Source: Elusimicrobiota bacterium
GTDB lineage: Bacteria; Elusimicrobiota; UBA8919
DNA: 64,000 nucleotides
Assembly: GCA_028718185.1 (NCBI GenBank)
Contig: JAQUMH010000003.1
Location: 210,811-274,810, forward strand
Direction: 5' to 3'
Program-made: the position numbers and the translations under genes
The notes under the pieces: model-generated
What the model saw: the letters and a program-made list of their open reading frames with translations, nothing else
Database searches by the model: none
Told to the model about the DNA's origin: nothing
In this document: positions 21,848 to 47,884 of the stretch, one piece after another
Layout of the letters: each line of letters starts with the position of its first letter
How positions within the stretch are numbered: position 1 is the stretch's first letter

Positions 21848-21971
21848 ATATTAATAATATAAGAACTTAGCCCGGCAAGTTAGGAAGATGTTGGCAGAGC
21901 AATTCTAGCCATTAAAATGTATATGTAGTTGCACGCCCTTGGCGTGCTTAATTTATCGTTGGAGGGAAATT
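21848..21971 (+). promoter_or_regulatory. 124-base intergenic region with a perfect hairpin before the cupin gene
   Basis: The gap contains TGTAG (21924-21928), a 7-bp perfect stem GCACGCC/GGCGTGC with loop CTT (21931-21947), then TTAA, then GGAGGG and the ATG at 21972. The stem is GC-rich in an AT-rich context. A second copy of the layout with a different but still paired stem lies at 47838-47866. It may be an attenuator, an mRNA-stabilising or processing element, or a mobile palindromic repeat. No convincing sigma70 boxes were found here. Confidence 0.6.
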
Positions 21972-22346
21972 ATGAGGGTATTACGTAAGAAATGTGCTTT
22001 TCAGGATGTAAGGGGGAAAATTACCGATATTCTGGAGAAGGAAATTATAGAATATGTAACGATTATAACTTCTAAGAAAGGAGCCGTTAGGGGTAATCAT
22101 TATCATAAGAAATCTATCCAGTATGCCTATATTCTTAGCGGGAAAATAAAACTTGTAACACAGATGCCCGGAAAGAAAGTTGAAAATAAAATTGTTAAAC
22201 CCGGCGATTTAGTAATTAATATTCCTACGGAAAGGCATACCCTGGTAGCCTTAGAAAACTCGGAATTTTTAGTCCTGACCAGGGGACCTCGTGGCGGTGG
22301 CAATTATGAAAACGATACGTATAGACTTGAGAAAAAAATAGCATAA
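21972..22346 (+). CDS. Cupin-fold protein, probable sugar-modifying or binding enzyme
   Basis: This 124-residue protein forms a single cupin domain. GNHYHKKS gives the first metal-ligand pair and the YILSGK strand follows, with GDLVINIPTERHT as the second half of the barrel. The reading frame extends to a TTG at 21939, but the ATG at 21972 has GGAGGG seven bases upstream and is the better start. Small cupins in deoxysugar clusters act as 3,4-ketoisomerases (FdtA type) or other isomerases. Directly ahead of a DegT-type aminotransferase, such a role is plausible, but catalytic residues cannot be assigned with confidence. Confidence 0.8.
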   Translation: MRVLRKKCAFQDVRGKITDILEKEIIEYVTIITSKKGAVRGNHYHKKSIQYAYILSGKIKLVTQMPGKKVENKIVKPGDLVINIPTERHTLVALENSEFLVLTRGPRGGGNYENDTYRLEKKIA

Positions 22347-22360
22347 TAAAGGAGTTCAAA

Positions 22361-23479
22361 ATGTACATTCCAACTTCTAAGCCGTATTTAGATAAGGGAG
22401 AACTTGATAATGTAGTATCTGCAATGAATGATGGCGCGATTTCGGGTTTATTCGGCAAATATATTGATGAATTTGAAAATAAATTTGCCCGCTATTGTGA
22501 TTGTAAATATGGTATTTCTACTAATAGCGGTACTACTGCTTTACATGTGGCAGTAGCTTCTTTGGGAATAGGGAAAGGCGATGAAGTTATAGTGGCATCT
22601 CTAACAAACATGGCGACCTTTTTTGCGGTTTTATACCAATATGCTAAACCAGTTCCGGTAGATATTGAAAAAGATACTATGAATATTGACCCCGGGTTAA
22701 TTGAATCTAAAATAAACAAAAATACAAAAGCGATTATGGTTGTTCACCTGTTCGGACATCCTGTTGATATGGACCCCATAATTAAATTAGCTAAAAAATA
22801 TAAATTGTATATTATTGAAGATTGTGCTGAAGCCCATGGCGCTTTGTATAAAGGCAGAAAAGTCGGTTCTTTAGGGGATATAGGTTGTTTTAGTTTTTAT
22901 TCAAATAAAATTGTAACCACCGGAGAGGGTGGGATGATAACGACGAACAACGCTGAAATTGCCGCCAAATCACGTTCATTAAAATGTTTGGCTTTCGGTA
23001 CAAAAAATAAATTTATGCATAAAAGTATCGGATATGGGTACCGGATGACAAATATCCAGGCGGCGATCGGTTGTGCGCAGCTTAAAAAAGTTGAAGTTAT
23101 TATTGACAAAAAACGAAAAATAGCGAAATATTATAACGAGCAATTTAAAAATATCAGTGAATTGGCAATCCCCGTTGAAAAAGAATATGCAAAAAATGTT
23201 TACTGGATGTATCATGTAGTGCTTGGTAGAGATGTAAAATTGTCAAGAGAGCGGGTTATGAATAAACTAAAAGAATACGGGATAGAAACGAGGGAGTCAT
23301 TTATTCCTTACAATATGCAGGAAATATTTATACGGAAAGGATGGGTTAATCACAATGAGTGTCCGAATGCTAATTATGTGGCAGGTAAGGGATTTTATAT
23401 ACCAAGCGGACCGATTCTGAGTAAAAAAGAATTAGAATATGTTTCCGGTAAAATAAAAAAAGTGTTATTAAATAAATAG
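22361..23479 (+). CDS. DegT/DnrJ/EryC1/StrS family PLP aminotransferase
   Basis: This 372-residue aminotransferase transfers an amino group, usually from glutamate, to a keto-sugar nucleotide. NSGTTALHVAV binds the PLP phosphate, IIEDCAEAHGA (Asp154, His159) supports the ring, and Lys183 in FYSNKIVTTGEGG is the Schiff-base lysine. The EDCAEAHGA segment is like that of perosamine synthases (RfbE/Per). AAGGAG precedes the start. With the cupin just upstream it could form a 3- or 4-amino sugar, but the position of the keto group is not readable. Confidence 0.92.
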   Translation: MYIPTSKPYLDKGELDNVVSAMNDGAISGLFGKYIDEFENKFARYCDCKYGISTNSGTTALHVAVASLGIGKGDEVIVASLTNMATFFAVLYQYAKPVPVDIEKDTMNIDPGLIESKINKNTKAIMVVHLFGHPVDMDPIIKLAKKYKLYIIEDCAEAHGALYKGRKVGSLGDIGCFSFYSNKIVTTGEGGMITTNNAEIAAKSRSLKCLAFGTKNKFMHKSIGYGYRMTNIQAAIGCAQLKKVEVIIDKKRKIAKYYNEQFKNISELAIPVEKEYAKNVYWMYHVVLGRDVKLSRERVMNKLKEYGIETRESFIPYNMQEIFIRKGWVNHNECPNANYVAGKGFYIPSGPILSKKELEYVSGKIKKVLLNK

Positions 23480-23489
23480 AGCATATTGT

Positions 23490-24329
23490 ATGGAGAATAG
23501 AGAAGAATCAAAAAGTAAGTGGAATAAATTCTGGAGCGAATCTGATAAAATTATATTAAATGGCGGGGTTAAAGATGACAGTAGTTGGTATGCACTCATT
23601 TGGAAAATGGGATATGAATACTGGAAAGAGGTGTTTGATAAATATTCTCCCGGAAAGAAAATGCTGGAGTGTGGCGCCGGTGCTGCAAAGATATCTTATT
23701 TTATGGCAAGTTCCGATTATGATTGTACGATGCTTGATAATTCAGATAAGGCATTAGATGTTGCTAAAGCAAATTTTAGAGAAGCCGGTTTCAAAGGTAC
23801 TTTTGTTATAGGTAATGCAGAAGAAATGTCTTTTGAAAGTAATACTTTTGATTTAGTATACAGTGGGGGACTTCTGAATTATTTTGACAATGTCCAGCCG
23901 TTTATTAAAGAGATGGTAAGAGTACTTAAGCCCGGAGGTTTACTTTCTGCAACAATAATTTCATCAAAAAAGTTTAGTTGTCAAACGCTTGGAGATATTC
24001 AGATATTTTTATCAAGATTATTGATGAATATTGTTAAAGGCAGATTTAACGGTATCATTCAAAAAAGTAGACGGAATTTTCCATTTTACGAAAATTCTAT
24101 TAAACTTGAAGAGTATAGAAGAATATTAGATGAATGTGGTATAAAAGTTATAGTTGCTGCCGGCACTAATCCTTTTCCTGCAATAGCATTGCCTAAATTT
24201 TTAAGACCGTTGTATGCTAAAATAATCAAGACATTTATACCTTTCTGGAGATGGTTTGACCGGTCAGGTTCAAAATTCGCGGAAATATGGGGTTTTGGTT
24301 ATAATATATATGGAGTAAAAAAGCGGTAA
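23490..24329 (+). CDS. Class I SAM-dependent methyltransferase
   Basis: This 279-residue methyltransferase has motif I MLECGAGAAKIS, the acidic residue in CTMLDNSDKALDVA, and FDLVYSGGLLNYF followed by MVRVLKPGGLLSA, the usual Methyltransf_11/25 pattern. The N-terminal 50 residues are tryptophan-rich. The acceptor is not evident. It lies 10 bases after the aminotransferase and abuts the GT-B-like gene, so N- or O-methylation of an aminosugar is reasonable. Confidence 0.88.
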   Translation: MENREESKSKWNKFWSESDKIILNGGVKDDSSWYALIWKMGYEYWKEVFDKYSPGKKMLECGAGAAKISYFMASSDYDCTMLDNSDKALDVAKANFREAGFKGTFVIGNAEEMSFESNTFDLVYSGGLLNYFDNVQPFIKEMVRVLKPGGLLSATIISSKKFSCQTLGDIQIFLSRLLMNIVKGRFNGIIQKSRRNFPFYENSIKLEEYRRILDECGIKVIVAAGTNPFPAIALPKFLRPLYAKIIKTFIPFWRWFDRSGSKFAEIWGFGYNIYGVKKR

Positions 24330-25883
24330 ATGGAAAAAAAAGAAGATAAATATTTCAATGATTCTGCGGAATTAATTAAAAGTCTTAATGAAATAAAAAT
24401 AGAAGGGATTACCATAACCGAATATTTAAAGTTTAAAGAGGTTTCGTTATGGGAGTTAATGGTTCCTTTTTTAGCATGCTGCAGTTTCCCCTCGGCTTTT
24501 TCTCAGGCAAATCAAGAATTCAATATAATAAATTCCTGTAAACATCTTTTTCACAAAAAAATAAAACCTTATCTGAAATGTATCAGGGATTTTGTCAGAG
24601 ATATAAATGATAAGAAAAATATGGTTGAATATGAAAACATGGATAAAAAAAAGAACGCATTGTTTTTAGTATTTGAACCTCGCCACTACAAGGAGATTTA
24701 TTCTCCTTTGAAAGAAATATTAGTTAAAAGAGATATTGGTATTAGAACTATCTGTTCTAAGTACAGGGCAGCCCAGGAAAAATTTGCCAAAGAAGATACG
24801 CTCTTTATAGAAGATTTTTATAATATGGATATGGCTAATCAGGTAAAAAAAAACAATAAAGAAATATCAGTTAAATTAAAAAAAGTAAAAACAATACTGG
24901 TAAGTAAAATAAAAAATACTTACCCGGGTATCTGGAACTATTTCAGAGATGAACTAGATAGTATCTTTATCTGGGAATTTTCTTCATTAATAAAACAAAT
25001 TACTATAGCTCATGAGGTTATAGATAAAATAAAGCCTGATATTATTGCCGGCGGAGATGATTGCGACCCGCGGGCAAGAATCTATTTTCTGATAGGAAGA
25101 AACAGGAAAACACCCACATTGCTTATTCAACAGGGATATGCTTCAGATAACGCTTTTGAATGGCTTTTCCTTTCGGTTGATAAAGCCGCAATTTTCGGAA
25201 ATTATACTAAACAATGTCTTGAAAAAATAGGAGTTAAAAAAGAAAAACTTGTAATTTCAGGACAACCGCGGTTTGATAGTCTGGTAAAAATAACTAACGA
25301 AAGAGAAATTGTTTGTAATAAATATAACATTCAGTCAAAAAATAAAATCATATTGTTTACTTCTCAGCCAAATCATCCCGGAGCATTCAGTAGTGAAACC
25401 GTCAGAAGAAACGCAATAGAAACAGTTTATAGCTTGATTGACAATATAACTGACGCTGTTTTAATTGTGAAACCCCATCCCGATGAAAAGATGCAATATC
25501 ATCGGTCTCTCAAATTAAAAAATAACACGGGAAAAATAATTCTTGTGGACAGGCGCGATAATTTATATGAACTTATTAAAGCATGCGATTTATTAATAAC
25601 CTTTTTTTCTACTACAGCTATAGAAGCAATGATATCCAATAAACCTGTGCTTATTGTGAATTTGTTTAACCGTTGGACACCGTATGTGGAAAGCGGGGCA
25701 GCTTTACAGGCATGCTCAGGAAACGAAGCAGTATCTGTAATAAATGACATATTCAGCAATAATGGAATCCGGCAGGAATTAGAAAATAAAAGAAAGAAGT
25801 TTGTTGTGGAACATGCATATAATTTAGACGGGAATGCATCGGGAAGAGTTGTTGACTTAATGTTTGAAATGATGAAGAATTGA
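24330..25883 (+). CDS. Large GT-B-like transferase, related to CDP-glycerol/teichoic-type transferases
   Basis: The 517-residue protein has a helical N-terminal half of about 250 residues and a C-terminal half resembling the CDP-glycerol glycerophosphotransferase/UDP-GlcNAc 2-epimerase fold. Marks are GQPRFDSL near residue 308, ILFTSQPN, VLIVKPHPDE, LYELIKACDLLIT and then TTAIEAMISNKPVLIV. No signal peptide or membrane helix is clear. It starts directly after the methyltransferase stop. It may transfer a polyol-phosphate or sugar onto the growing repeat unit. The donor is not known and the specific family is not certain. Confidence 0.7.
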   Translation: MEKKEDKYFNDSAELIKSLNEIKIEGITITEYLKFKEVSLWELMVPFLACCSFPSAFSQANQEFNIINSCKHLFHKKIKPYLKCIRDFVRDINDKKNMVEYENMDKKKNALFLVFEPRHYKEIYSPLKEILVKRDIGIRTICSKYRAAQEKFAKEDTLFIEDFYNMDMANQVKKNNKEISVKLKKVKTILVSKIKNTYPGIWNYFRDELDSIFIWEFSSLIKQITIAHEVIDKIKPDIIAGGDDCDPRARIYFLIGRNRKTPTLLIQQGYASDNAFEWLFLSVDKAAIFGNYTKQCLEKIGVKKEKLVISGQPRFDSLVKITNEREIVCNKYNIQSKNKIILFTSQPNHPGAFSSETVRRNAIETVYSLIDNITDAVLIVKPHPDEKMQYHRSLKLKNNTGKIILVDRRDNLYELIKACDLLITFFSTTAIEAMISNKPVLIVNLFNRWTPYVESGAALQACSGNEAVSVINDIFSNNGIRQELENKRKKFVVEHAYNLDGNASGRVVDLMFEMMKN

Positions 25884-25884
25884 T

Positions 25885-27024
25885 ATGAATATTGCAATAA
25901 ACGCTTCATATTTAGAAGGCAAAAGAACCGGTGTCGGCAGATATCTTTCCAATATTTTAAAGTATTGGTCAAAAAACTCTCCGGAAAATAATTATTACTT
26001 ATATTTTAAAAGAGAAATACCAAAAGATGAATATTTGAGTGCCCCTTGTTTCATTAAAAAAATAATACATGCACCGGAATTTTTAAATAGATGGATATTT
26101 TGGGAAAATATATTTTTGTCCAGGCATATTAAAAAAAACAAAGAACTGGATATCTTTTTTTCGCCCGCTTACACGTTGCCGTTTTTTATCGGCAACATAA
26201 AAAAAGTTGTAGCTGTATTCGATATTTTTTATACGGTGCACCCGGAATGGGTACCATTAAGCAATCGTTACACATTAGGACTTATTTCAAAAATATCTTC
26301 AAAACAAGCTGATGTTGTTTTAACGGCATCTAATTTTGATAAAAACGATATTGTAAAATATTATAAAGTGCCGGAAAGTAAAGTAAAAGTCATATATCTT
26401 GCCGCAGAAGACAAATTTAAAAATATTAACAATTTAGAAAATACTAAACATGTAATTTCAAAATACGGTATAAAGGACAAATATGTTCTTTGCGTTGGGC
26501 TGATAATTAACAGGAGAGTACAGGATATAATAATCAGGGCATTTAGCAGGTTGAATAAAGAATATAAAGATGCAAGTTTGGTTATCATTGGACAAAACAA
26601 AAGTTATCCGTATATTGACATAGAAAAAGAGATTGAAAATAGCAATGCGAAAGGAAATATAAAGTGGATTCCGTATTTGCCTGAAAACGAAATGACAAGT
26701 TTTTACAGTAATGCCTCTGCTTTTATTTATATTTCTCTGTATGAAGGCGAAAGTATTCCGCTGAAAGAAGCTATGGCAGCAGGTATCCCGGTAATAACAG
26801 CATCTATTTTAGATGAAGTTGTCGGAGATGCAGGGTATATTGTAAAAAATCCTAAAGATGAGGAAGAATTAAAAACAGCAATGAAAAGTGTTCTTTCAGA
26901 TAATAATCTACGAGATCAGATGATTCGGAAAGGAAAGAAACGAGCGGATATGTTTTCTTGGGAAAAATGTGCGCAGGAAACTATGGGGGTTTTAAAATAT
27001 GTTTGTATCCAGAGTAAAAAATAG
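25885..27024 (+). CDS. Glycosyltransferase family 4-like (GT-B)
   Basis: This 379-residue GT-B glycosyltransferase has an N-terminal GVGRYLSNILKYW acceptor-domain mark, ASNFDKNDIVKYY, a VLCVGL strand at the start of the donor domain and EGESIPLKEAMAAGIPVI, the EX7E-type motif that binds the nucleotide sugar. These are typical of retaining family 4 enzymes such as mannosyl- and rhamnosyltransferases. One base separates it from the preceding gene, and its 3' end overlaps the DUF2723 gene by 26 bases. It probably acts at the cytoplasmic membrane face on the lipid-linked repeat. Confidence 0.9.
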   Translation: MNIAINASYLEGKRTGVGRYLSNILKYWSKNSPENNYYLYFKREIPKDEYLSAPCFIKKIIHAPEFLNRWIFWENIFLSRHIKKNKELDIFFSPAYTLPFFIGNIKKVVAVFDIFYTVHPEWVPLSNRYTLGLISKISSKQADVVLTASNFDKNDIVKYYKVPESKVKVIYLAAEDKFKNINNLENTKHVISKYGIKDKYVLCVGLIINRRVQDIIIRAFSRLNKEYKDASLVIIGQNKSYPYIDIEKEIENSNAKGNIKWIPYLPENEMTSFYSNASAFIYISLYEGESIPLKEAMAAGIPVITASILDEVVGDAGYIVKNPKDEEELKTAMKSVLSDNNLRDQMIRKGKKRADMFSWEKCAQETMGVLKYVCIQSKK

Positions 27025-30000
27025 AATTATACATTTAAGAACATTACTTATTTTAATTTTATGCTTTCTTTTTAACTCCATATTTGCTTTGGAAAAACCT
27101 GAAACGAATAACGAGGTTAAATTAGATTTATCAGTAAATAGCGATAACTGGTTTTCAGTAGAGCCAATATCGGAAGATTGGAAAATACATGGTATATCAT
27201 TGATGTTGGAAAGTCGAGATTATAAATCAAAGAATTCGCTGCAAATAAAAGTTTTTAAAATCTTACCCGCACCCGATAAATATGATTTCTCTCTTTATGA
27301 GTTAAAATCAGCAACTGTCTATCCGCGTGATTTTAGCAAAAAAAAATATTATACGATTTTTTTTAAGGATGAAAGCAAGGACGAACGTCTATCCAATAAC
27401 TACGCACCATTTGACGCAAATCCTAAAGATAGATTCCTTATTAATATCATACCGGCTCAACCTGTTTCAATTTATTCTAACTTTAATTATGAAAAAACAA
27501 AACAATTGAATTTCCGAATAGTAAAGGATAATATTATTTTAGGACAAATAGGGGTTCCGGATGAAAATAAATGGAATATTCCTAATTATGGTATGCCGGA
27601 TGATTGTTCTCAAGGCGACCAGGGATTTTCTATTATAGATTTTGGGAAAAAGGCAAACGAAAATAAGATGATACAAGTTGTTGAAGTTCATTGTCAGTCC
27701 GGTAATAATAAAATAAAATTAAATATCTGGCGGGAAGAAAATGATGGGTGGTTGTTGATAAAAGAATCCGAGGTATTAACGGCTGGAAAGGGTTTCAACA
27801 CACTTAAACTTAAAAACCCTATTTTTATTACAAAAGGGGATTATATTGGATTTATTGCTTTAGCTGGTGAAATAAGCCGAACATTACCATATACAAGGAT
27901 CGGCAAGGGTTATATTAAAGGACCTGTTAAAGTATTAAGTAAAATACAAAAAGACATGATAACAAAAGATACTGCAGGTGATTACTGGTTGCATGTTTTC
28001 TCAAATGAAGAAATTGATTATGAATTAAGTGAAGGTCTTGCTTCGGACCATATTAGATATTCTAAAGAAGGAATCAGCATAATAGATTTGGAAAAAAGAG
28101 CAACAATAGACACTAAATTAGATATATTTGAGATATATTCTCTTGTACCTGACAATAAAGTAAGGTTAAAAATATGGAGTCGTGACAATGACAATTGGTT
28201 GCTTGTTGGTGAATCTGAATTATTTACGGCTAAAGTTGGTTTAAATTCCTTTAAACTCAGTAAAGAAATTGTTGTTAAAGAAGGTGATTATTTTGGTTTT
28301 TTTACATCGTCTGGCAGCATAAGTCGTAAAATGCCTTATATAAACAGTGGCAGATATTTTGTACAAGGTGACGTAGTTGCGGCCAAAATAGAAGATAGTA
28401 AAATGAACAAAGAAGGTGAAGGTGGTTATTGGTTTAACGTAGGATTGAGCAGTGTTAAAAACCAAGATATGATTGGTAGCATATATAACAACGCATATAT
28501 AAAATGGGTAACATCGCCGATGTGGGGAAATTTAGCAGGAATAATACTAAGTGACATAGAAAAGCCGTATAATTTCATCATGCCGTTTATATATCTTTTA
28601 CTTTTTGAAATAATAGCAATAGCTATATTAGGATTTATGTTTTATGGCAAGAGATTAATCAGAGAAAAAGAGAAGAGGGATATATTTTCTGTAATATTGA
28701 TTACAGGTTTTATAACGGCGATACTATATTTTGCCACAGTATGTACAGGTTTTCTCGGCGGCGATAATTATGAGATACAGATGGCACAGTATTTGTATAA
28801 GGATGTACATTTTCCCGGATATCCGATAATGATATTATTGGGTTACTGGTTTGGTAAGTTGATGCCTGTAGGAAATTATATGTACAAGGCGAATTTATTT
28901 GCCGTATTTTGTTCAAGTATAGGTATAAGTTTTTTTGCCGGAGCGTTATATAATTATACAAAACACAAAGCATCTTCAATATTGATTGCACTTATAATGG
29001 CGACTACTCAGACGATATGGAATTATAGTGTAGTGGCACAGGATTATTCGGTATCAATATTATTTCAATGTTTATTGTTATTTGCGATAGTAAATATACA
29101 AGAGGAACCTACATACAAGTCATATTTTAATCTGATAGTAATTGCCTTTTTAGCGCCGATAGCCCATATGACAAATGCAATAGGTTCACTTTTTATAATG
29201 GGTTTGACGACAATATGGTTTTGGAGAACCCACAGGTTTAATATTAAAAAAATACTATACATTGTTTTATCGTTAAGTACGATAATAATAATTCTTTATA
29301 CACCGTTGGCTTTAATTGAGAATCCTACTAATTATGCACAAATTGTTAAATATACTGACTGGAAAAACCAGTTTGTTGAAAAAAACACAGGGTACGAAAA
29401 TATAGTTATCAGTACAAATAGTTTAAAAATATTTTCTGGATATATTACAGGTAACGGTCCTGGTACAAATAGACGTTCTGGGATTATTGGTAAATTTAGT
29501 GAAAAAGGAATTTCCTATATCATTATAAAAGGTTTTTCTGGTTATTTGAGAATATTAGGATATGGATACGGATACATGCTTATCTTTATTAGTGTTTTAG
29601 GTTTACTTTTACTGTTAGTATATAAAAAAAGAAATATGATTATATGGTATTTATTATTTACATTTATTGGAAATATTATATTTAACTGCACTGAATTTTT
29701 TTATTATGAGTTTAAATATCTGGATTATGCATTAACAGCACATCAGCTTCCATCTATCATTATATTATCATTTAGTATTGTAGGTATAGTTATTTATTTT
29801 TTAAGAAATCAACTTATGAAAGAGCAAAAAGTCCGAAATAAACTACAATACTTATGGATTTTTATGAAGAAGAATAATATGAAAATATTTATGGTATTTC
29901 TTGTGGCACTGTTTTTCTGGAATACAATAAAGAATTATCGTTTATGTAATTTTCGTAGCCGCGACGATTGGGAAAAGATGATGTCTTTCTATCGCAATGA

Positions 30001-30832: not shown

Positions 30833-30853
30833 ACCAAATTCGGAGGCACTTCA

Positions 30854-31840: not shown

Positions 31841-31862
31841 CAGGTGAAAAAATTGTTTAATT

Positions 31863-32858: not shown

Positions 32859-32873
32859 TTCTAAAGACAGATT

Positions 32874-34286: not shown

Positions 34287-34293
34287 ATAATTT

Positions 34294-36821: not shown

Positions 36822-36902
36822 TGACATAAATTTCTTCAATCTTATACTGATGTTATCAAAATGTAATAACTTAACAGATATTAAGAAAGGAAGTATAAAA
36901 TA

Positions 36903-38720: not shown

Positions 38721-39844
38721 ATAAAAAAATTAAAATTATAAGTGTTGTTGGTGCAAGACCGAATTTTATGAAAATTGCTCCGTTATCTGCTGAATTTGCA
38801 AAAAGAGCGGATAAAATAGAGCATATTTTAGTTCATACCGGTCAGCATTATGACAGGTCAATGGATAAAATATTTTTCGAAGAGTTAAATTTGCCAAAAC
38901 CTCATATTAATCTCGGGATTGGTTCGGCATCACACGCGGTTCAAACAGCAAAAATAATGATTGGTTTTGAAAAAGTATGTCTTAAATATCTTCCAGACTG
39001 GATAGTTGTAGTTGGAGATGTAAATTCTACGATGGCTTGTTCATTAGTAGCAAGTAAAATGGGAATAAAAGTAGCGCACGTTGAGGCGGGTCTCCGCAGT
39101 TTTGACATGAGTATGCCCGAGGAAATAAACCGGGTAGTAACTGATTCAATTTCTGATTTACTGTTTACACCTTCTCCTGATGCAAATGCAAATCTGCTTC
39201 GCGAGGGAATTGATAAGAAAAAAATTAAAATGGTTGGAAACATAATGATTGATACTCTAATTGCAAATTTGGACAAGGCACTGGCGCAGAAAACACACTT
39301 GAAGATGGATCTAAAGGAAAAATATTTTGTTTATGTCACACTTCATCGTCCGAATAATGTTGATAGTAAGGAAAATCTGGGAAAAATTGTAAAAGAGCTG
39401 GTTTATCTTTCAGGTAAAATACCTGTTGTATTTGCTGTCCACCCGCGTACAAAGAAAAATATGTTAAAGTTTAGTTTAATGGATAAATTGAAAAATAGTC
39501 GCAATATTATACTTGCGGAACCGCTGGGATATCACGATTCTATTTGCCTTACTAAAAATGCAAGATTTATTTTGACGGATTCCGGAGGTATTCAGGAAGA
39601 AACAACTTTTTTAAAGGTTCCTTGCCTTACAATAAGACCTTCCACGGAACGGCCTGTTACTATTACTGAAGGAACTAATAAGTTAACTAATATTGATGAA
39701 TTACAGAAAAATATGAGTGATTTATTAAGTAAAATGACTCCTAAAAAGAGTAAAATTCCAAAATTTTGGGATGGCAAGACAGCAAAAAGGATTGTCGATA
39801 TATTATTTATATATTATTCTGCTTTATCATTGAAAAGGCATTAG
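38717..39844 (+). CDS. wecB: UDP-GlcNAc 2-epimerase, non-hydrolysing type
   Basis: This 375-residue enzyme interconverts UDP-GlcNAc and UDP-ManNAc. VVGARPNFMKIAPL, HTGQHYD, VVGDVNST, HVEAGLRSFD and RPSTERPVTITEGTN are the fold's characteristic blocks, and LTDSGGIQEE binds the UDP part. The length is that of the non-hydrolysing family, and no kinase domain is fused. It could supply ManNAc to a nonulosonate pathway or to ManNAc-containing chains. The start overlaps the preceding stop as ATGA. Confidence 0.9.
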   Translation: MNKKIKIISVVGARPNFMKIAPLSAEFAKRADKIEHILVHTGQHYDRSMDKIFFEELNLPKPHINLGIGSASHAVQTAKIMIGFEKVCLKYLPDWIVVVGDVNSTMACSLVASKMGIKVAHVEAGLRSFDMSMPEEINRVVTDSISDLLFTPSPDANANLLREGIDKKKIKMVGNIMIDTLIANLDKALAQKTHLKMDLKEKYFVYVTLHRPNNVDSKENLGKIVKELVYLSGKIPVVFAVHPRTKKNMLKFSLMDKLKNSRNIILAEPLGYHDSICLTKNARFILTDSGGIQEETTFLKVPCLTIRPSTERPVTITEGTNKLTNIDELQKNMSDLLSKMTPKKSKIPKFWDGKTAKRIVDILFIYYSALSLKRH

Positions 39845-39858
39845 TAAAAAGATATAAT
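39830..39858 (+). promoter_or_regulatory. Sigma70-type promoter before DUF2723 paralogue B
   Basis: TTGAAA (39830-39835) and TATAAT (39853-39858) are separated by 17 bases. The -35 box lies in the last codons of the epimerase gene. Transcription would start near 39865, about 38 bases before the ATG at 39903, where AAAGGAG is found. It could make the DUF2723-B block a separate transcript within the larger run. Confidence 0.5.
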
Positions 39859-39902
39859 TAACAATTCAGGGAAATAATATTCAAAAGGAGATTTAAGCAT
39901 TC

Positions 39903-42764
39903 ATGATTAAAAAATATTGTAAGTTGTTAAGTGTTTTGGTAGTTACAGTTGTTTTATTTCTATCTGTAAATAACTATATTACAGCAAAACCAGTCAAAAG
40001 TGATGAAGTTAAGTTAGATTTATTGGTCGGTAAAGATAATTGGTTTCTTATGGAACCTTTAACTGAAAGTTGGAAAATACATGGGATTTCCTTACTTCTT
40101 GAGAGTGATAATTATAAATCAAAAAACCCAATGGAGATAAAAGTATATCAAATATTGCAGTCAACAATTAGTTTAAATAGTCTGATAATAAATGAGGTGA
40201 TGGAAGTTAAAGTTTTTCCTAAGGATCTAAATAGGAAGAGATATTATACAGTATTTTTTGGAGATCATGAATATAAAGAGAAAAAATATAAATCATTTCT
40301 CGCAGAACCAACCGATAGATTCGTTGTAAACATAAAAGTAAAACAGGCGGTGTCGATTTATTTGGCATCAGATTCAAAAGATAAATCTAATAAGGTTATA
40401 GAACAAAATAAATTACTAATAAAGAATTTTGCAAGTGTTAAAAAAGATACAGAATTAAATAATAACGCATATATAAAGTGGGTAACAGCGCCAATTTGGG
40501 GGCATATAGCTGGAACGATACTAAGTGCGATGGAGAAACCGTACAATTTTATAACACCGTTCATATATTTAATACTTTATGTAATAATAGCTATAATTAT
40601 ATTAGGTTTTGTCTTTTATGGTAAGAATTTATTTTTAGATATAGAGAAGTTTAACATATTTAAAGTAATATTGACGACCAATGTAATATTAGTGATGCTA
40701 TATTTTGCAACAGTATGTACAGGTTTTATCGGTGGTGATAATTACGAGATACAGCTAGCTCAATACTTGTATCAGGATGTACATTTTCCCGGATATCCGA
40801 TAATGATATTTTTGGGTTATTGGTTCGGTAAGTTAATGCCTGTGGGCAATTTTATGTATAAGGCGAATTTATTCGGAGTGTTTTGTTCGAGTATCGGGAT
40901 AAGTTTTTTTGCAGGGGCATTATACAATTATACAAAACATAAAACATCAGCAATGTTAATAGCACTCGTAATGGCGACAACCCAGACGGTGTGGAATTAC
41001 AGTGTGGTTGCGCAAGATTATTCGGTATCAATATTATTTCAATGTTTAATATTATTTGCAATAATAAATTTACAAAATGAATCTGACTATAAGTCATATT
41101 TCAATTTGATAGTTTTTGCTTTTTTAGCGCCGATAGCTCATATGACAAATGCAATGAGTTCGCTTTTTATTATGATTTTGGCGACAATATGGTATTGGAA
41201 AACACACAGATTTAATTTAAAGAAAATAGTAGACATTGTTTTATCTTTAAGCTTAGTATTTATTGTTTTATATACTCCATTGATTTTAAAGGAAAGTCCT
41301 AATTATTATGCTCGGGTTGTATTTAAAACTAAAGAAGAAATTACAATTAACAGGAACAATTTAAAAATATTTTTTGGATATATTACAGGTAATGCTCCTC
41401 AAATGAAAGCGAGTAATGGGTTTGTAAACCTTGTTAAAAATGCTGGAATTATGCCCACTATCAGATCTCATTTTCATACATATCGAAAACTATTAAATTA
41501 CGGATATGGTTACTTGTATGCTATTATAGGTGGGTTGGGTCTGTTTATATTGCTGATATATAAGAAAAGTAGCATAATTACTTGGTATCTGTTGATTGCA
41601 TTATTTAGTAATATATTATTTAGTTGTACTGATATATCATATCTTAAACTTCCAAAAGGTGACAATATACTAACAGGTCATCAACTCCCATCAATAATTA
41701 TATTGTCTTTTAGTATCGTAGGCATAGTTATTTCTATTTTAAGAAAACGGATTATAGAAGAGCAAAAAGTCCGAAATAAACTACAATACTTATGGATTTT
41801 TGTGAAGAAGAATAATATGAAAATATTTTTGGTATTTCTTGTGACATCGATTTCCTGGAATATAATAATAAATTATCGTTTATGCGATTATCGCAGCCGC
41901 GATGATTGGGAAAAAATGATGTCTTTCTATCGCAATGAGCTAATACCGGGTACTACCGTAAGGACACATATGTACGAAGAACATGTTTTGGGGATATTTC
42001 ACAGGCTTGAATATACCCGTCGTGATACAGGTGATGATAGATTTAGCGGTTGTCTAAGTTCGCAAACAATATCTTTAAATTCAGAGTATGTTTTACCGGC
42101 ATTTTTAGATTCAAAGAATCGAGAAAAGGAATCTTCAATGTTTTACATAACTGATAAAGAGATTGATAAATATTTTAATTTAGTTCCTGTGTTTACAAAA
42201 TATCATTTGAGGTTTATATTGGGAGATATAGCTAATTTACAATTATATCAAGGTTTTAAAGATAGGCAATTGTACTATGCGCTTCCAAAGAGAACAATGG
42301 CTGGTGTAAATCCGTCATGGCAAGAGATAACAGCAGTGAATTACAATAAATATAAAAGTATATTTATAAACAACTGGGAAGCGACACCGCTTGGAATACG
42401 GCCTAATGATATAGGGTGGGTATCAAATATTCTAATATATAAACCTAAAAGGAAAAAAATAAAGCAAGTTGTAATGCGGTTTGTGGTGACATTAAATCCG
42501 GAGAACAAACCTGGTAACATCAATAAGGTAGATATGGCATTTTATCTAAATAATGTTGTGATAAAGGAAAGACGTGTAATGTCCGGCAGGAAAGAGGAGA
42601 TAAGAATAGAAGTACCAGTGAGTGAATTAAGTAGGCAATACAATTTTCTTTCAGTAGTCCCTTTTTACAATGGTGTAAATTGTTGGTATCCGACACCTTT
42701 ATATCCGTTACCAAAAGGTGAATATCCATATCTAATTGAGAGTTTTAGTATAATTGAACAATAG
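39903..42764 (+). CDS. DUF2723/GT-C-like membrane protein (paralogue B)
   Basis: This 953-residue protein shares the whole membrane and C-terminal region with paralogue A. GGDNYEIQLAQYLYQDVHFP and the FGKLMPVGNFMYKANLFG block are nearly the same, and the soluble C-terminus matches for long stretches. The N-terminus has a signal-anchor helix and a shorter extracytoplasmic region of about 165 residues; the two duplicated domains of paralogue A are absent. It probably transfers a sugar from a polyprenyl-phosphate donor outside the membrane. AAAGGAG precedes the ATG. It is followed by a methyltransferase and a GT2, giving a second glycosylation set. Confidence 0.82.
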   Translation: MIKKYCKLLSVLVVTVVLFLSVNNYITAKPVKSDEVKLDLLVGKDNWFLMEPLTESWKIHGISLLLESDNYKSKNPMEIKVYQILQSTISLNSLIINEVMEVKVFPKDLNRKRYYTVFFGDHEYKEKKYKSFLAEPTDRFVVNIKVKQAVSIYLASDSKDKSNKVIEQNKLLIKNFASVKKDTELNNNAYIKWVTAPIWGHIAGTILSAMEKPYNFITPFIYLILYVIIAIIILGFVFYGKNLFLDIEKFNIFKVILTTNVILVMLYFATVCTGFIGGDNYEIQLAQYLYQDVHFPGYPIMIFLGYWFGKLMPVGNFMYKANLFGVFCSSIGISFFAGALYNYTKHKTSAMLIALVMATTQTVWNYSVVAQDYSVSILFQCLILFAIINLQNESDYKSYFNLIVFAFLAPIAHMTNAMSSLFIMILATIWYWKTHRFNLKKIVDIVLSLSLVFIVLYTPLILKESPNYYARVVFKTKEEITINRNNLKIFFGYITGNAPQMKASNGFVNLVKNAGIMPTIRSHFHTYRKLLNYGYGYLYAIIGGLGLFILLIYKKSSIITWYLLIALFSNILFSCTDISYLKLPKGDNILTGHQLPSIIILSFSIVGIVISILRKRIIEEQKVRNKLQYLWIFVKKNNMKIFLVFLVTSISWNIIINYRLCDYRSRDDWEKMMSFYRNELIPGTTVRTHMYEEHVLGIFHRLEYTRRDTGDDRFSGCLSSQTISLNSEYVLPAFLDSKNREKESSMFYITDKEIDKYFNLVPVFTKYHLRFILGDIANLQLYQGFKDRQLYYALPKRTMAGVNPSWQEITAVNYNKYKSIFINNWEATPLGIRPNDIGWVSNILIYKPKRKKIKQVVMRFVVTLNPENKPGNINKVDMAFYLNNVVIKERRVMSGRKEEIRIEVPVSELSRQYNFLSVVPFYNGVNCWYPTPLYPLPKGEYPYLIESFSIIEQ

Positions 42765-42775
42765 GAGGAAGACAG

Positions 42776-43657
42776 ATGGGTCGGTATGATGCAACTTGTA
42801 AGATATGTAACAAGAACCAAAAGTTTATTTTTGAGTATCATAAATATGTTTATTGTAGATGTGTAAATTGTGGTTTAGTTTCAACTTATCCCTTACCGGA
42901 TGATATAACAATTGAAACACATTATGCAAAGAAATTTATAGAGGGTAATTATCAGTTACTTAGAGAATATTCAGATCAATATATATTTATATATAAGGGT
43001 TTTGTTAATGTTCTTGAATCTGAACTTAGGAAACATGGATTAAAACTTCCGGGTTTAAGCGTATTAGATGTGGGTTGTTTTACCGGGGAATTTTTATATC
43101 TTCTTCGTGAACGCGGAGCTGATGTTTATGGGTTGGAATTACAGACAGAAGCAGTAGAAATAGCCAATGAAAAATTATCAGGCCGTGTTTTGAAAGCAGA
43201 TGTTTATGAAAATATTTTTCCAAAAAAACAATTTGATATTATAACTCTTTTAGGAGTGGTTGAACATGTGTTAGATCCGGCTAAATTACTTAATCGTTCA
43301 TCCGAACTTTTAAAACCGGGTGGAATATTGCTAATACAAACTCCCAATAGTGCTTCGCTTTTTGCGAAAATTATGGGCAAATTGTGGCCGCCGTTCGCAC
43401 CGGTAGAGCATATACATATATTTACAAAAAAGAGTATAAAGCTGAAATTAAAAGAACTGGGTTTTGAAAATATTTCTTTTAATATGCATATAAAAAAATT
43501 ACCGGTTTCATATGTTTTCACTATGTTGCAAAATTTCGGTCCGGAGTTTTATCGTATATTTAAACCGATATATAAATGTTTGCCAAAATATATTACGGAT
43601 ATTTCACTGCCTTTCTTTATAGGGGAAATGATAGTAAAAGCCCATAAAAAAAGCTGA
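42776..43657 (+). CDS. Class I SAM-dependent methyltransferase with zinc-ribbon N-terminus
   Basis: This 293-residue protein starts with CKICNKNQKF and CRCVNCGLV, four cysteines of a zinc ribbon. The core has SVLDVGCFTGEFL, VYGLELQTEAVEIA, ITLLGVVEHVLDP and KPGGILLIQTPNS, typical of Methyltransf_23. AGGAGG lies 8 bases before the ATG. It lacks the C-terminal domain of the C-methyltransferases at 20624 and 44447. The acceptor is probably a sugar or a terminal residue of the chain, which may cap the polymer; this is inference. Confidence 0.87.
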   Translation: MGRYDATCKICNKNQKFIFEYHKYVYCRCVNCGLVSTYPLPDDITIETHYAKKFIEGNYQLLREYSDQYIFIYKGFVNVLESELRKHGLKLPGLSVLDVGCFTGEFLYLLRERGADVYGLELQTEAVEIANEKLSGRVLKADVYENIFPKKQFDIITLLGVVEHVLDPAKLLNRSSELLKPGGILLIQTPNSASLFAKIMGKLWPPFAPVEHIHIFTKKSIKLKLKELGFENISFNMHIKKLPVSYVFTMLQNFGPEFYRIFKPIYKCLPKYITDISLPFFIGEMIVKAHKKS

Positions 43658-43691
43658 GGTATGAAATAAAGCGTTAAGAAGGTTATGTAAT

Positions 43692-44423
43692 ATGGATATA
43701 AATAAAGATAGTAAAAAAATCAGTTTTTGTATAGTTGTTCCTATGTATAATGAGGAATCAAATGCAGAAAAATGTGTAACTACTATACATGATTTTATCA
43801 GCAAGTTAAGTTATAAAACTGCGTTAATAGCTGTGAATGATGGTAGTAAAGACAAGACCGGTGATATTTTAAAAAATATATCAACTAAACTGAATAAGTT
43901 CATTATAGAGACACATGAAAAGAACAAAGGTTATGGGTCTGCTAATCTTACCGGTGCCAAACGTGCATTTAAGGAAGGCTATGATTATGCACTATTCATG
44001 GATGCTGACCTTACACAAAATGTTAGTTATATTTACCCATTTATTGAAGAAATGAATAAAGGTACTGATTTTATAAAAGCTACCAGATATGCAAAGGGCG
44101 GCGGTGTTAAGGATGTGCCTTTTAATCGATGGATAGTATCTTTAATAGGTAATAAAATTATTAAAATATTTTTTAGATTACCATTGACTGACTATACAAA
44201 TGGTTTCAGAGCTGTAAAAACCTGTCTTTTATCTCAAATAGAATGTGAAGACAGAGGTTTTTCTTATTTAATTGAAGAGGTTAAAAAAATTTCTAAGATT
44301 TCAAAGAGTTATGCAGAAGTGCCTTATATTTTAACAGTCAGAGAGAGTAAATATTCTAAATCAAAATTTCAATATTCACCAAAAGTATATTATAAATATT
44401 TAAGATATTTATTTAAAAAGTAA
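43692..44423 (+). CDS. Glycosyltransferase family 2, DPM1-like without membrane helices
   Basis: This 243-residue GT2 has VVPMYNEESNAEKC, AVNDGSKDKTGDI and FMDADLTQN (DAD as the metal site), and LTDYTNGFRAVK. It is the soluble form of the polyprenyl-phosphate sugar synthases, shorter than the 30854 product because the two C-terminal helices are missing. It follows the DUF2723-B and methyltransferase genes, so it may supply the donor for that protein. The start has a weak ribosome site. Confidence 0.87.
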   Translation: MDINKDSKKISFCIVVPMYNEESNAEKCVTTIHDFISKLSYKTALIAVNDGSKDKTGDILKNISTKLNKFIIETHEKNKGYGSANLTGAKRAFKEGYDYALFMDADLTQNVSYIYPFIEEMNKGTDFIKATRYAKGGGVKDVPFNRWIVSLIGNKIIKIFFRLPLTDYTNGFRAVKTCLLSQIECEDRGFSYLIEEVKKISKISKSYAEVPYILTVRESKYSKSKFQYSPKVYYKYLRYLFKK

Positions 44424-44446
44424 TGCTAAATTAGGGGAGTAAATCA

Positions 44447-45724
44447 GTGAAGAATAAAAATGTTAATTGCAGTTTTTGTAACAGCGATAATATGTCACTC
44501 ATCATAGATTTCGGGGATGTTGCTCTTGCCGGGGGATTTTTAAGAGAAGACCAGTTCCCGGTTGAAAAAAAATACCCGTTACAATTATATTTTTGCAGGG
44601 AGTGTTATTCGCTCCAGGTTGTAAATAAGATATCTCCTGAAATATTATTTAAGAATTATTTTTATTTTTCATCGGCAATAGGTACTCTAAAAGAACATTT
44701 TATAAAATATGCAGAAGAAGTAACTGATAGATTTTTAGTCCCAGGTAAATCTACGGTTCTGGAAATCGGGTGTAATGATGGTGTATTGCTTAATCCTTTT
44801 TCAAAACGCGGGATAAAAACAGTTATTGGCGTAGATCCTTCGGAAAATGTGGTAAAGTCAATTAGCAATCCCCATATAATCGTAGTAAATGATTTTTTTT
44901 CTGAAAAAGTAGCTGCGAAGATATTAGGCAAATATGGTCAAGTGGATTTAATTGCTGCAAATAACGTTTTTGCTCATTTATATGACATTCATGATATTGT
45001 CAGAGGAATTAAAAAACTATTGTCAAAAGATGGTGTGTTTGTTTTTGAGGTTCATTATATTGCTAACCTTATTGACGAAATACAGTATGATATGATTTAT
45101 CATGAACATTTATATTATTATTCTTTAATCGCCCTGGAAAATTTATTTAGTATATATGACATGGAAATATTTGATGTTAAAAAAATACCGATTCACGCCG
45201 GTTCCATGCGGTATTATGTCAGGAAGAAAGGCGGTCTGAAAAAAGAAAAAATCTCGGAAGATGCTATTCGTCTGAAAAAAGAAGAATTAAGGAAAAAATA
45301 TGACAAAGTAGAAACTTATTTAGATTATGCGCAAAGGGTTAAAAATACAAAGACAACTTTAATAAATTTGATAAGAAAACTCAAAAAGGAAGATAAGGTA
45401 ATCTATGGCTATGGTGCTTCCGGCAGAGCTAATACTGTGATACAGTATTGTGATATAGATAAGAATATGCTGGATTGTATTATTGATGATGCACCGGCTA
45501 AACAAGGGTTTTATACTCCTGGTTCACATTTTTTAATTAAATCAAGAGAGTTTATGGAATTGCACCCACCGGATTATATTCTTGTGTTTGCGTGGAGTTT
45601 TGTAAACGAGATAATTAAGAGAAATCAAAATTATTTAAATAACGGAGGGAAAATTATTATACCATTGCCGGAAGTAAAAATTATATCTTCAAAAGACGGT
45701 AAAATAAATGAAGAAAGTATCTAA
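44447..45724 (+). CDS. Sugar C-methyltransferase (second copy, GTG start)
   Basis: This 425-residue protein has the same layout as the 20624 product. CSFCNSDNM and CRECYSLQ give the zinc ribbon, VLEIGCNDGVLLNPF motif I, IYHEHLYYYSL the YHEH active-site region and YGYGASGRANTV the C-terminal Rossmann domain. The start is GTG, with GGGGAG 7 bases upstream. It ends 17 bases inside the RmlD-like gene. It likely methylates a carbon of a keto-sugar. Two such genes suggest two branched sugars in the product. Confidence 0.9.
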   Translation: MKNKNVNCSFCNSDNMSLIIDFGDVALAGGFLREDQFPVEKKYPLQLYFCRECYSLQVVNKISPEILFKNYFYFSSAIGTLKEHFIKYAEEVTDRFLVPGKSTVLEIGCNDGVLLNPFSKRGIKTVIGVDPSENVVKSISNPHIIVVNDFFSEKVAAKILGKYGQVDLIAANNVFAHLYDIHDIVRGIKKLLSKDGVFVFEVHYIANLIDEIQYDMIYHEHLYYYSLIALENLFSIYDMEIFDVKKIPIHAGSMRYYVRKKGGLKKEKISEDAIRLKKEELRKKYDKVETYLDYAQRVKNTKTTLINLIRKLKKEDKVIYGYGASGRANTVIQYCDIDKNMLDCIIDDAPAKQGFYTPGSHFLIKSREFMELHPPDYILVFAWSFVNEIIKRNQNYLNNGGKIIIPLPEVKIISSKDGKINEESI

Positions 45725-46643
45725 CAATAAGAAAAATATAAAAGTGCTGGTTTTAGGTAAAGATGGCATGCTAGGTAACATGGTTTATACTTTTTTAAAG
45801 TATAAAAAGATAGCAGTTTTTGGTACACAACCATTTGACAAAAATAAACCGTTTTACCTGAACATGAGCGGAGAAAATATAGGTAACAATTACTTCAATA
45901 ATATTTCATCTGGCATAGATTATGTTGTAAATTGCATTGGTATGACAGAACTCGACAGGACCGATAGTGATAGATTCAAATTAGGGTTCTATATTAATGC
46001 AATATTCCCATATTTTTTACAGAGATTTTGTTTAGACAAAAATATTAAAATAATTCACATGTCTACTGACGGCGTTTTTAAAGGCGATAAGGATGTATAC
46101 AATGAAAACTGTGAGTGTGACGGCATCGGGGAATACGCCCTTTCTAAAATAATCGGCGAGGTTTTCGCTCCCAATGTACTTAATATAAGATGTTCAATAA
46201 TAGGTAACAGCATTGACGGCAACCACGGTCTTCTTGATTGGTTTTTATCTAAAAAAGAAAGTGAAACAATACAGGGATATACTAATAATATATGGAACGG
46301 TATTACAACTTTACAGTTTTCTGAGTTTGTCTATGATATTTTGCAAAAAAATATGTATAATGATGTAATAAAAAAAACAAAAGTTATACATTTTTCACCT
46401 AATCTGCCATTAAGTAAATGCGAATTACTTGCTTTATTCAAAGAAATTTATAAGAAAAATATTACCATAAACCCTGTTCAAGCAAAAGAAAATACAAAGA
46501 GAATTCTTGATTCAAAATATGGTTATTTTTACCTTGATAAGAAAGGAACAAAAAAAGATATTAGAGAAGCAATGATAGAGATGAAAAAATTTAACGAGAT
46601 TGTTGGGTGTTCTTTGGGCAACAATCTCAGGAGAAAAAAATGA
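45708..46643 (+). CDS. RmlD-like NAD(P)-dependent sugar reductase
   Basis: This 311-residue extended SDR resembles dTDP-4-dehydrorhamnose reductase. GKDGMLG sits at residues 17-23, VVNCIGMTELDR, HMSTDGVFKG and Tyr143-Lys147 (YALSK) give the catalytic region. It has no C-terminal cupin, unlike CapF/FnlB, so with the next two enzymes it fits QnlA/WbvR of the UDP-L-QuiNAc route rather than L-FucNAc. It overlaps the preceding gene by 17 bases and the next by ATGA. The assignment to the pathway is inference from gene order and size. Confidence 0.85.
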   Translation: MKKVSNNKKNIKVLVLGKDGMLGNMVYTFLKYKKIAVFGTQPFDKNKPFYLNMSGENIGNNYFNNISSGIDYVVNCIGMTELDRTDSDRFKLGFYINAIFPYFLQRFCLDKNIKIIHMSTDGVFKGDKDVYNENCECDGIGEYALSKIIGEVFAPNVLNIRCSIIGNSIDGNHGLLDWFLSKKESETIQGYTNNIWNGITTLQFSEFVYDILQKNMYNDVIKKTKVIHFSPNLPLSKCELLALFKEIYKKNITINPVQAKENTKRILDSKYGYFYLDKKGTKKDIREAMIEMKKFNEIVGCSLGNNLRRKK

Positions 46644-47722
46644 AGGTAATGACAGTTGTGGGCACTCGTCCCGAAATGATTAAAATGTGGTCAGTATTAA
46701 AGAAACTGGACTCCAGTAATTTTGAGCATATCATGGTACATACAAGCCAAAATTACACAAAGGAATTAAAAGATTTCTTTTTCCATGATTTGGAATTAAG
46801 GAAACCGGATTATGATATTGCAATAGATACGTCTTCATATGGCAAAGAAGTATCAGATGTTATACGCAAGAGTGATGAGTTGTTTGTTAAGGTAAAACCT
46901 GACATGTTGATAATTTTGGGAGATACCTACAGTGGTTTGTCGGTATTACCGGCGTCTCATCGCGAGATAAAAATATTCCACATGGAAGCCGGTCTGAGGG
47001 CGTGGGATAAACGGATGCCGGAACAAAGAAACAGGATTTTAATTGACCATATTTCTGATATATTATTACCGTTTAACCAGTACCACAGGGAAAATCTTAT
47101 AAGAGAAGGAATACATCCTTCAAAAATATTTGTAACCGGTAATACTACTTTTGAAGTAATGAGAGCATTCCAGAGTAAAATTAAAAAAAGTGATATTTTG
47201 AAAAAATTAAGTTTGCAACCCAAAGAATATATTCCAATTACATTACATAGAAAAGAAAATGTTGATGATGCGGGTTCTTTAAGGTTTATTATAGAAGGAC
47301 TTGGGCTAGTGTATAAAAAATTTAAAAAAGAAATTATTTATCCTATGCATCCCAGGACAAAAAGTAAAATAAAAAATATTACTATTCCGAAGGGAATTAG
47401 AATAATTGAGCCGTTGGGGTTCTACGATTTTAACTGTTTAAGTATGAATGCATTTTGTTTAATGGCGGATTCGGGAACAACTGCTGAAGAAGGTCTGTTT
47501 TATAAAGTTCCTTGTGTCAGCTTGAGACAAAGCACGGAAAGACCCGAAACTGTTGAAGCAGGCGCCCACATCGTTTCAGGTATAAATCCGCAGAATATAG
47601 CCGAATCAGTTGAGACAATTACCAATATGGAATGGAAGGCGAAATATGATTTTAGCGAAGAAACAAGTCCTTCTTCAGTTGTGATTAATGTATTAAGAAG
47701 CCAAATTACAAATTATTTCTAA
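46640..47722 (+). CDS. UDP-sugar C2-epimerase (CapG/WbjD/QnlB-like)
   Basis: This 360-residue enzyme of the non-hydrolysing 2-epimerase family starts MTVVGTRPEMIKMW. HTSQNYTKELKDFFF, ILGDTYSGL, HMEAGLRAWDKRMPEQRNR, and STERPETVEAGAH follow. It differs from the WecB-like protein at 38717 in all these blocks and resembles the CapG/WbjD group. It would act on the 6-deoxy-talose-type intermediate to give the L-sugar. The frame extends upstream, but the ATG at 46640 has AGGAG 7 bases before it and overlaps the preceding stop as ATGA. Confidence 0.88.
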   Translation: MKVMTVVGTRPEMIKMWSVLKKLDSSNFEHIMVHTSQNYTKELKDFFFHDLELRKPDYDIAIDTSSYGKEVSDVIRKSDELFVKVKPDMLIILGDTYSGLSVLPASHREIKIFHMEAGLRAWDKRMPEQRNRILIDHISDILLPFNQYHRENLIREGIHPSKIFVTGNTTFEVMRAFQSKIKKSDILKKLSLQPKEYIPITLHRKENVDDAGSLRFIIEGLGLVYKKFKKEIIYPMHPRTKSKIKNITIPKGIRIIEPLGFYDFNCLSMNAFCLMADSGTTAEEGLFYKVPCVSLRQSTERPETVEAGAHIVSGINPQNIAESVETITNMEWKAKYDFSEETSPSSVVINVLRSQITNYF

Positions 47723-47884
47723 ATAATAGTTGCAAATAAAAATCTATATTGTTAAAAATAGTATGAAGAAATATATAGAGTAAAATAGTAAGTAATTTTT
47801 TAAGTTGCTTGTATTATTTAGAGTATTAGGATTCTAATGTAGCGGCAAAGCGGTAGCTTTGCTTAAGTCGTGAAGGAGAAATTT
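47723..47884 (+). promoter_or_regulatory. 162-base intergenic region with second copy of the TGTAG-hairpin-TTAA element
   Basis: TGTAG (47838-47842), then a 7-bp perfect stem GCAAAGC/GCTTTGC with loop GGTA (47845-47862), then TTAA (47863-47866) lie just before AAGGAG and the ATG at 47885. The layout copies 21924-21951 while the stem bases differ. A possible weak promoter, TTGTTA (47749-47754) and TATATA (47772-47777) with 17-base spacing, is uncertain in this AT-rich gap. Confidence 0.55.

Follow-up and report, generated by a model that had tools for sequence, protein, structure and literature searches.

The two hairpins in the window (the whole 64,000-nucleotide stretch of DNA analysed here) are very probably GTAG-tagged non-autonomous elements of the REP (repetitive extragenic palindrome) type, most likely mobilised by REP-associated tyrosine transposases (RAYTs) of the host, with stems that stay paired as a transposase substrate. 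Site 1 stands alone as a REP of the GCACGCC-CTY family, and at site 2 a REP hairpin forms the end of a MITE-like element of ~125 bp, hereafter element B. The first-pass annotation had described a single element found twice. Both hairpins are indeed repeated elements, but they are members of two separate GTAG-tagged REP families, and loop size and class differ between the two sites.

Site 1 (21924..21951, forward strand) reads TGTAG-TT-GCACGCC-CTT-GGCGTGC-TTAA and site 2 (47838..47866, forward strand) reads TGTAG-CG-GCAAAGC-GGTA-GCTTTGC-TTAA. These coordinates were confirmed, and the pattern TGTAGNNGCANNNCN{2,5}GNNNTGCTTAA has exactly two matches in the window, far above chance (shuffle mean 0.00; 0/100 shuffles). 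Folded as RNA, the sites have energies of -12.6 kcal/mol (z -4.0) and -11.7 kcal/mol (z -2.8), respectively. Both are intergenic and neither is part of a dimer. The reported placement ahead of start codons, with a ribosome site in between, also proved correct: the TTAA end lies 20 nt from the ATG at site 1 and 18 nt at site 2, with Shine-Dalgarno sequences GGAGGG (21961..21966, forward) serving the gene with ATG at 21972 and AAGGAG (47873..47878, forward) serving that with ATG at 47885. The window is a long one-strand polysaccharide cluster with many sugar-nucleotide genes. Site 1 precedes a cupin-like gene of a sugar-biosynthesis cluster (21972..22346, forward; weak NCBIfam cupin match), with a LegC/PseC-type aminotransferase gene next in line. 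Element B is preceded by a UDP-GlcNAc 2-epimerase gene (WecB; 46607..47722, forward; TIGR00236, 267 bits, over the cut-off), and site 2 is followed by a UDP-GlcNAc 4,6-dehydratase-like gene of the PseB/CapD type (47885..48949, forward; TIGR03589, E 5.5e-96, under the curated cut-off). A search of the window against Rfam 15 returned no matches above the gathering score.

Copies of both families were collected from the genome by pattern and model searches. The genome-wide search that the first-pass annotation had proposed, run with the same pattern over 3.03 Mb in 27 contigs, gave 20 exact matches where the pattern in reverse gave 0, so these are not chance copies; the three stem positions that the pattern leaves free are paired in 20/20. 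By sequence context, the majority of the 20 belong to a dimer that we call kind A, with about 45 full or partial matches in the genome. Its first half is an inverted hairpin on the other strand, GTAG-CC-GCAGAGC-GTTA-GCTCTGC, followed by a spacer; its second half is GTAG-CT-GCAAAGC-RAA-GCTTTGC followed by TTAACTTG and often by ATGTATAGGAATTTCAATG.

The site-1 hairpin occurs genome-wide in 35 exact and 60 near copies (reversed control 0), a search for GTAGTNGCACGCCCTYGGCGTGC at two or fewer mismatches finding 60 places in the genome and 0 in the control. Because mismatches were left free, this search puts structural constraint to a fair test. Two mismatches are carried by 21 of the 60 copies, and all except one of these 21 are fully paired compensatory doubles, bearing out the folding constraint expected of further copies. 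The 20 doubles are of four kinds (TCACGCC/GGCGTGA, ACACGCC/GGCGTGT, GCGCGCC/GGCGCGC and GCATGCC/GGCATGC); one change is shared by 17 of them, which may descend from a single event. Covarying stems had originally been read from the comparison of site 1 with site 2. That comparison is between two families, whereas compensatory change is found within the site-1 family and within the superfamily. Across 20 distinct triloop hairpins from this genome and its relatives, 140/140 stem cells are paired, with 43 cells showing two-sided changes (10.1 in shuffles) and a covariation of 0.85 (0.19 in shuffles); this panel was picked as hairpins and counts as supporting evidence only, the genome-pattern results being the cleaner test.

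Element B is a dispersed mobile element whose 3' end is the site-2 hairpin. The window copy spans 47745..47868 on the forward strand by model match (C3:258555-258678, E 6e-14, with site 2 itself within the model). Copies start with GGTACTGTC and continue with CAAAAATAGTATGAARRAATATGAAAA, an AT-rich middle holding a TATAAT-like hexamer, and the GTAG hairpin, on the 3' side of which stands TTAAGT or YTAATT. In most copies the hexamer lies at a near-constant distance of ~21 nt before GTAG. Alignment places the conserved box of the left part, TGTTAAAAATAGTATGAAGAAATAT, at 47750..47774 (forward), with a weak possible left-end palindrome, and a putative -10-like hexamer, TATTAT, at 47812..47817 (forward). 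The model, built from nine copies, matches seven times in the own genome, five times in G002 and three times in G005; homologous copies are present in three genomes (G000, G002 and G005), and the model has no match in the 38 other genomes searched. Three of the seven own-genome matches are weak (E about 0.006), and one weak match, on a kind-A-type dimer, is probably not a true copy. The own genome holds nine exact-stem site-2 copies and seven copies of the extended form (TAATGTAGCNGCAAAGCGNNAGCTTTGCTTAAGT hairpin, three or fewer mismatches). Besides the GGTA of site 2, the loops of site-2-type copies are GATA, GACA, GGCA and GCCA.

Covariation was looked for within element B copies and was absent, the site-2 stem being almost invariant; the element B hairpin thus gives no evidence for RNA-level selection. 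A left helix has 85% of cells paired over the nine copies, has no double change and is not supported by covariation, with suggestive left-end pairing in two copies (TACTGT/ACAGTA and TACTAT/ATAGTA). At two loci of G005 (L107, G005:C106:8015; L111, G005:C118), the left part of element B is fused to unrelated sequence and the hairpin is missing; these look like truncated or recombined copies.

One copy of element B can be set against its empty site. In G002 it occupies the xseB-pgi junction, immediately ahead of the ribosome-binding site of pgi, and the same junction is free of the element in seven relatives, namely G005 and six more, the own genome among them. G005 belongs to the same genus as G002 and is ~80% identical to it across the xseB-pgi locus. 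The simplest reading would be an insertion of element B in G002. This insertion polymorphism comprises a single clean empty site. The genes that follow element B copies are unrelated to one another (pgi and, by names assigned on inspection, nitroreductase, B12-radical SAM, arsenite methyltransferase-like, dehydratase and DegP-like genes, pgi having been named in the same way). The wider distribution is narrow and patchy: exact matches to the site-2/kind-A pattern among 84,980 species genomes occur only in three Elusimicrobia MAGs, and the site-2 hairpin is found in 8 of 341 Elusimicrobiota genomes. The 1.5-Mb genome of a distant Elusimicrobiota family (G053) carries 61 copies of GTAG-NN-GCAAAGC-GNNA-GCTTTGC, evenly split between strands, and at G150:C85:5977-6093 the GCAAAGC hairpin stands four times in tandem at an exact 31-bp spacing.

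The own genome encodes seven Y1_Tnp genes, five of which are of the short RAYT kind with an NYYEHIIRN-like motif. Scores against NF047646 (REP-associated tyrosine transposase) reach 90.8 bits for an NCBIfam cut-off of 80; among the RAYT genes tested one passes and the others come near, that with the site-2 hairpin scoring 66.1 bits. Each window family has a RAYT that contains or is flanked by its hairpin. Gene L031 holds in frame GTAG-CT-GCAGAGC-GAA-GCTCTGC on the sense strand and, on the antisense strand, GTAG-CG-GCAAAGC-GATA-GCTTTGC, which is of the site-2 type; RAYT gene L030 is followed, ~250 bp on, by a site-1 hairpin. The GCAAAGC-GATA-type hairpin is kept in relatives of L031 in G005, G007 and G149, and G005 has both hairpins. 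In an aligned trio of L031-type genes the stems are conserved and the loop varies. In the G005 gene the hairpin segment is shifted in frame and in length, as if re-inserted or rearranged. Gene L032 and its G007 counterpart have another hairpin pair in common (GCACCAT, GCATCGC). No L031-type RAYT was found in the 91%-complete assembly of G002, though G002 carries element B copies, which counts against mobilisation by RAYTs, as does the below-cut-off score of the RAYT with the site-2 hairpin.

Several further observations concern these genes. Across two families, L031-type genes conserve the stems but not the residue encoded by the loop. RAYT frames of the own genome (L031, L032 and L034) and of relatives (L166, L156, L164, L160, L167, L215 and L230) hold in-frame GTAG hairpins whose positions recur and whose stems match those of dispersed repeats. 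A run of ~13 G directly upstream of the L034 reading frame (C6:~40960) is possibly a slippage tract or an assembly artefact. The two longer Y1_Tnp genes of the own genome, L028 and L029, have inverted ends of the GGGGACGGTCC / GGACCGTCCCC type, not GTAG hairpins, and form a second class of Y1 element.

We hypothesize that RAYT/TnpA-REP proteins, which are HUH-Y1 enzymes, would copy REPs in single-stranded form, with the transposase reading the GTAG foot together with the folded DNA hairpin. Recognition of the hairpin as substrate would keep the stems paired: a stem change unmatched on the other arm would leave a dead copy, and the outcome would be families with different yet perfectly paired stems, from which the paired differences noticed at first sight would follow. 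Element B would insert between co-directional genes and end close ahead of the next gene's own ribosome-binding site. Both the assignment to particular RAYTs and the single-strand route are our reading of the sequence, and the window copies would probably have little or no regulatory role. Selection on structure, as first proposed, holds insofar as these are repeated elements whose structure is kept; a DNA hairpin for a transposase fits better than an RNA switch. For the site-2 family an RNA switch is the less fitting since element B is mobile, given the empty site, and generic same-stem REPs lie near starts in 0/23 cases.

Short elements in an AT-rich genome might suggest a chance similarity of two unrelated hairpins, to which we attach virtually no probability, as it is refuted by 20 to 60 copies where shuffles and reversed controls give 0. 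Action as intrinsic terminators or attenuators between genes is very improbable. In the scanned region site 1 ranks first among terminator-like sites (7 pairs, 6 of them GC), but the scan gives 10 such sites where 7.3 are expected by chance, and start codons follow closely after many site-2-type copies. An intrinsic terminator was also rejected on the 3' sequences of the families, TTAACTTG or TTAAGT, which are without a U-run. A promoter scan of the site-1 region showed no clear excess over shuffles. In the site-1 family, 5/30 copies have a start with ribosome-binding site within the 60 nt that follow and 4/30 have one on the other side, so that there is no side preference; the suggested line of RNA termination or processing is not supported here, in a class that has no T-run. 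Even less credible is recruitment of a specialised NusG/RfaH-type factor to long polysaccharide operons. In its favour are the polysaccharide genes of the window, the GGTA loop of site 2 and the presence in site 2 of GCGGTAGC, as in the ops/JUMPstart hairpin, yet copies also precede non-polysaccharide genes. The likeness of GCGGTAGC was rejected on the varying loops of the family (GATA, GACA, GGCA and GCCA), whose bases are not conserved.

Placement before the ribosome-binding site, which the first-pass annotation had noted for both hairpins, is non-random in the site-2 family, the site-1 family showing no such side preference. A start with a ribosome-binding site follows 10 of 13 site-2-type copies at 21–36 nt, seven of them at 21–24 nt, compared with 9/51 for other REPs of the own genome (p 1e-4) and 0/23 for same-stem generic REPs of relatives; these counts come from small samples of mutually related copies. 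Site-2-type hairpins before starts are always on the same strand as the gene. The clustering is real and is not explained by pure mobility. It may stem from a useful promoter and leader, from a preference for Shine-Dalgarno sites, or from insertions being tolerated only up to ~20 nt from a start.

These data bear on a reading that we consider unlikely, in which site-2-type hairpins are a 5' leader module: element B would bring a promoter-like box and an mRNA-stabilising or translation-setting hairpin and be kept for expression of the next gene, mobility being merely how the module spread. Besides the clustering on the gene strand and the near-constant position of the TATAAT-like hexamer upstream, this is favoured by several copies (C10:15909, C3:151759 and C3:159847) in which hairpin and spacing are retained although the upstream part has been lost or has diverged. 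However, the downstream genes are unrelated, relatives lack the pgi copy, no good -35 match is apparent by eye, and short intergenic gaps together with the purging of insertions less than ~20 nt from a start could mimic the clustering. That the 125-bp element is a REP-derived, mobile 5' leader, setting a stable hairpin and promoter-like box ~21 nt before starts, is doubtful; were it true, placement by Shine-Dalgarno insertion preference or by selection would rewire the expression of unrelated genes.

The REP/RAYT interpretation places the Elusimicrobiota hairpins in a system of known kind. With the GTAG-tagged REPs of the GTAG-1/GTAG-2 type (Di Nocera et al. 2013, PMC3733652) they have in common the GTAG foot, an unpaired dinucleotide, a short perfect stem and a small loop, and likewise a short conserved motif on the other side, complementary alternatives within the stem, HH/TT dimers and intragenic copies. 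The 5' GTAG, the dispersed copies, the complementary stem alternatives and the inverted dimers (kind A, and in relatives) all mark the present families as REPs. Stem families with complementary differences are known for GTAG REPs (PMC3733652). Published REPs are found mostly a short way past the 3' ends of genes, a general tendency and no strict criterion, whereas the site-2 family prefers the 5' side; Elusimicrobiota are absent from the main text of that study. As in RAYT/TnpA-REP systems, REPtrons and REPINs (PMC6006769, PMC8266576, PMC3116915), Y1 genes here have GTAG hairpins around and inside them. TnpA-REP genes of subclass 2.4 are reported to have in-frame REPs, as a rule between the HUH and Tyr motifs (PMC6006769), while here one in-gene hairpin precedes the HUH motif and one lies between HUH and Tyr. 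Group 3 Marinomonas REPs consist of GTAG, 2 nt and a perfect stem, and RAYTs, bound to a GTAG foot and a folded single strand, make their cut close by (PMC8266576). Like PATEs/MITEs (PMC3119063), element B is short and transposase-free, has a palindrome near one end, shows patchy insertion, and has no terminal inverted repeats that could be seen. PATEs, which derive from IS200/IS605, have palindromes near both ends, no terminal inverted repeats and no target duplication, whereas in element B the right one is clear and the left weak and unsupported, and a parent IS605 element was not identified.

The whole picture is thus REP/RAYT, and our literature search found no report of it in Elusimicrobiota; the host phylum and the composite 125-bp element appear to be undescribed, which would extend REP/RAYT biology to this phylum. 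RAYT genes that, across genera, hold the hairpin of their own type in frame tie each REP family to its likely enzyme. The families also offer a clean case of stem covariation that resembles RNA selection and has a mobile DNA hairpin as its source, and the start clustering of the site-2 family is a concrete oddity in an otherwise known kind of system.

GTAG hairpins form a wider population around these families. A scan of the fetched DNA found 137 of them with many different stems. Tail-to-tail dimers, kind A among them, share a linker, TAACTTGATGTATAGGAATTTCAATG, with 48 copies (0 in the control), which combines with several other stem families, and head-to-head hairpin pairs are present in relatives. 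Enterobacterial BIMEs similarly consist of opposite-orientation REPs joined by conserved linkers into mosaics. Kind A dimers resemble them in this mosaic plan and differ in stems and linker, one linker going with several stem families. Linker orientation agrees with the sign of GC skew in 41 of 47 testable copies, on contigs C1, C2, C3, C5, C8 and C10, with C10 and part of C4 disagreeing. This agreement lends weak support to single-strand transposition during replication and is confounded with gene direction. Within C8, linker orientation flips about where GC skew flips. At C3:151545-151785 (L025), at least six different GTAG hairpins stand within 250 bp, the last of them 22 nt before a rubredoxin-like ATG.
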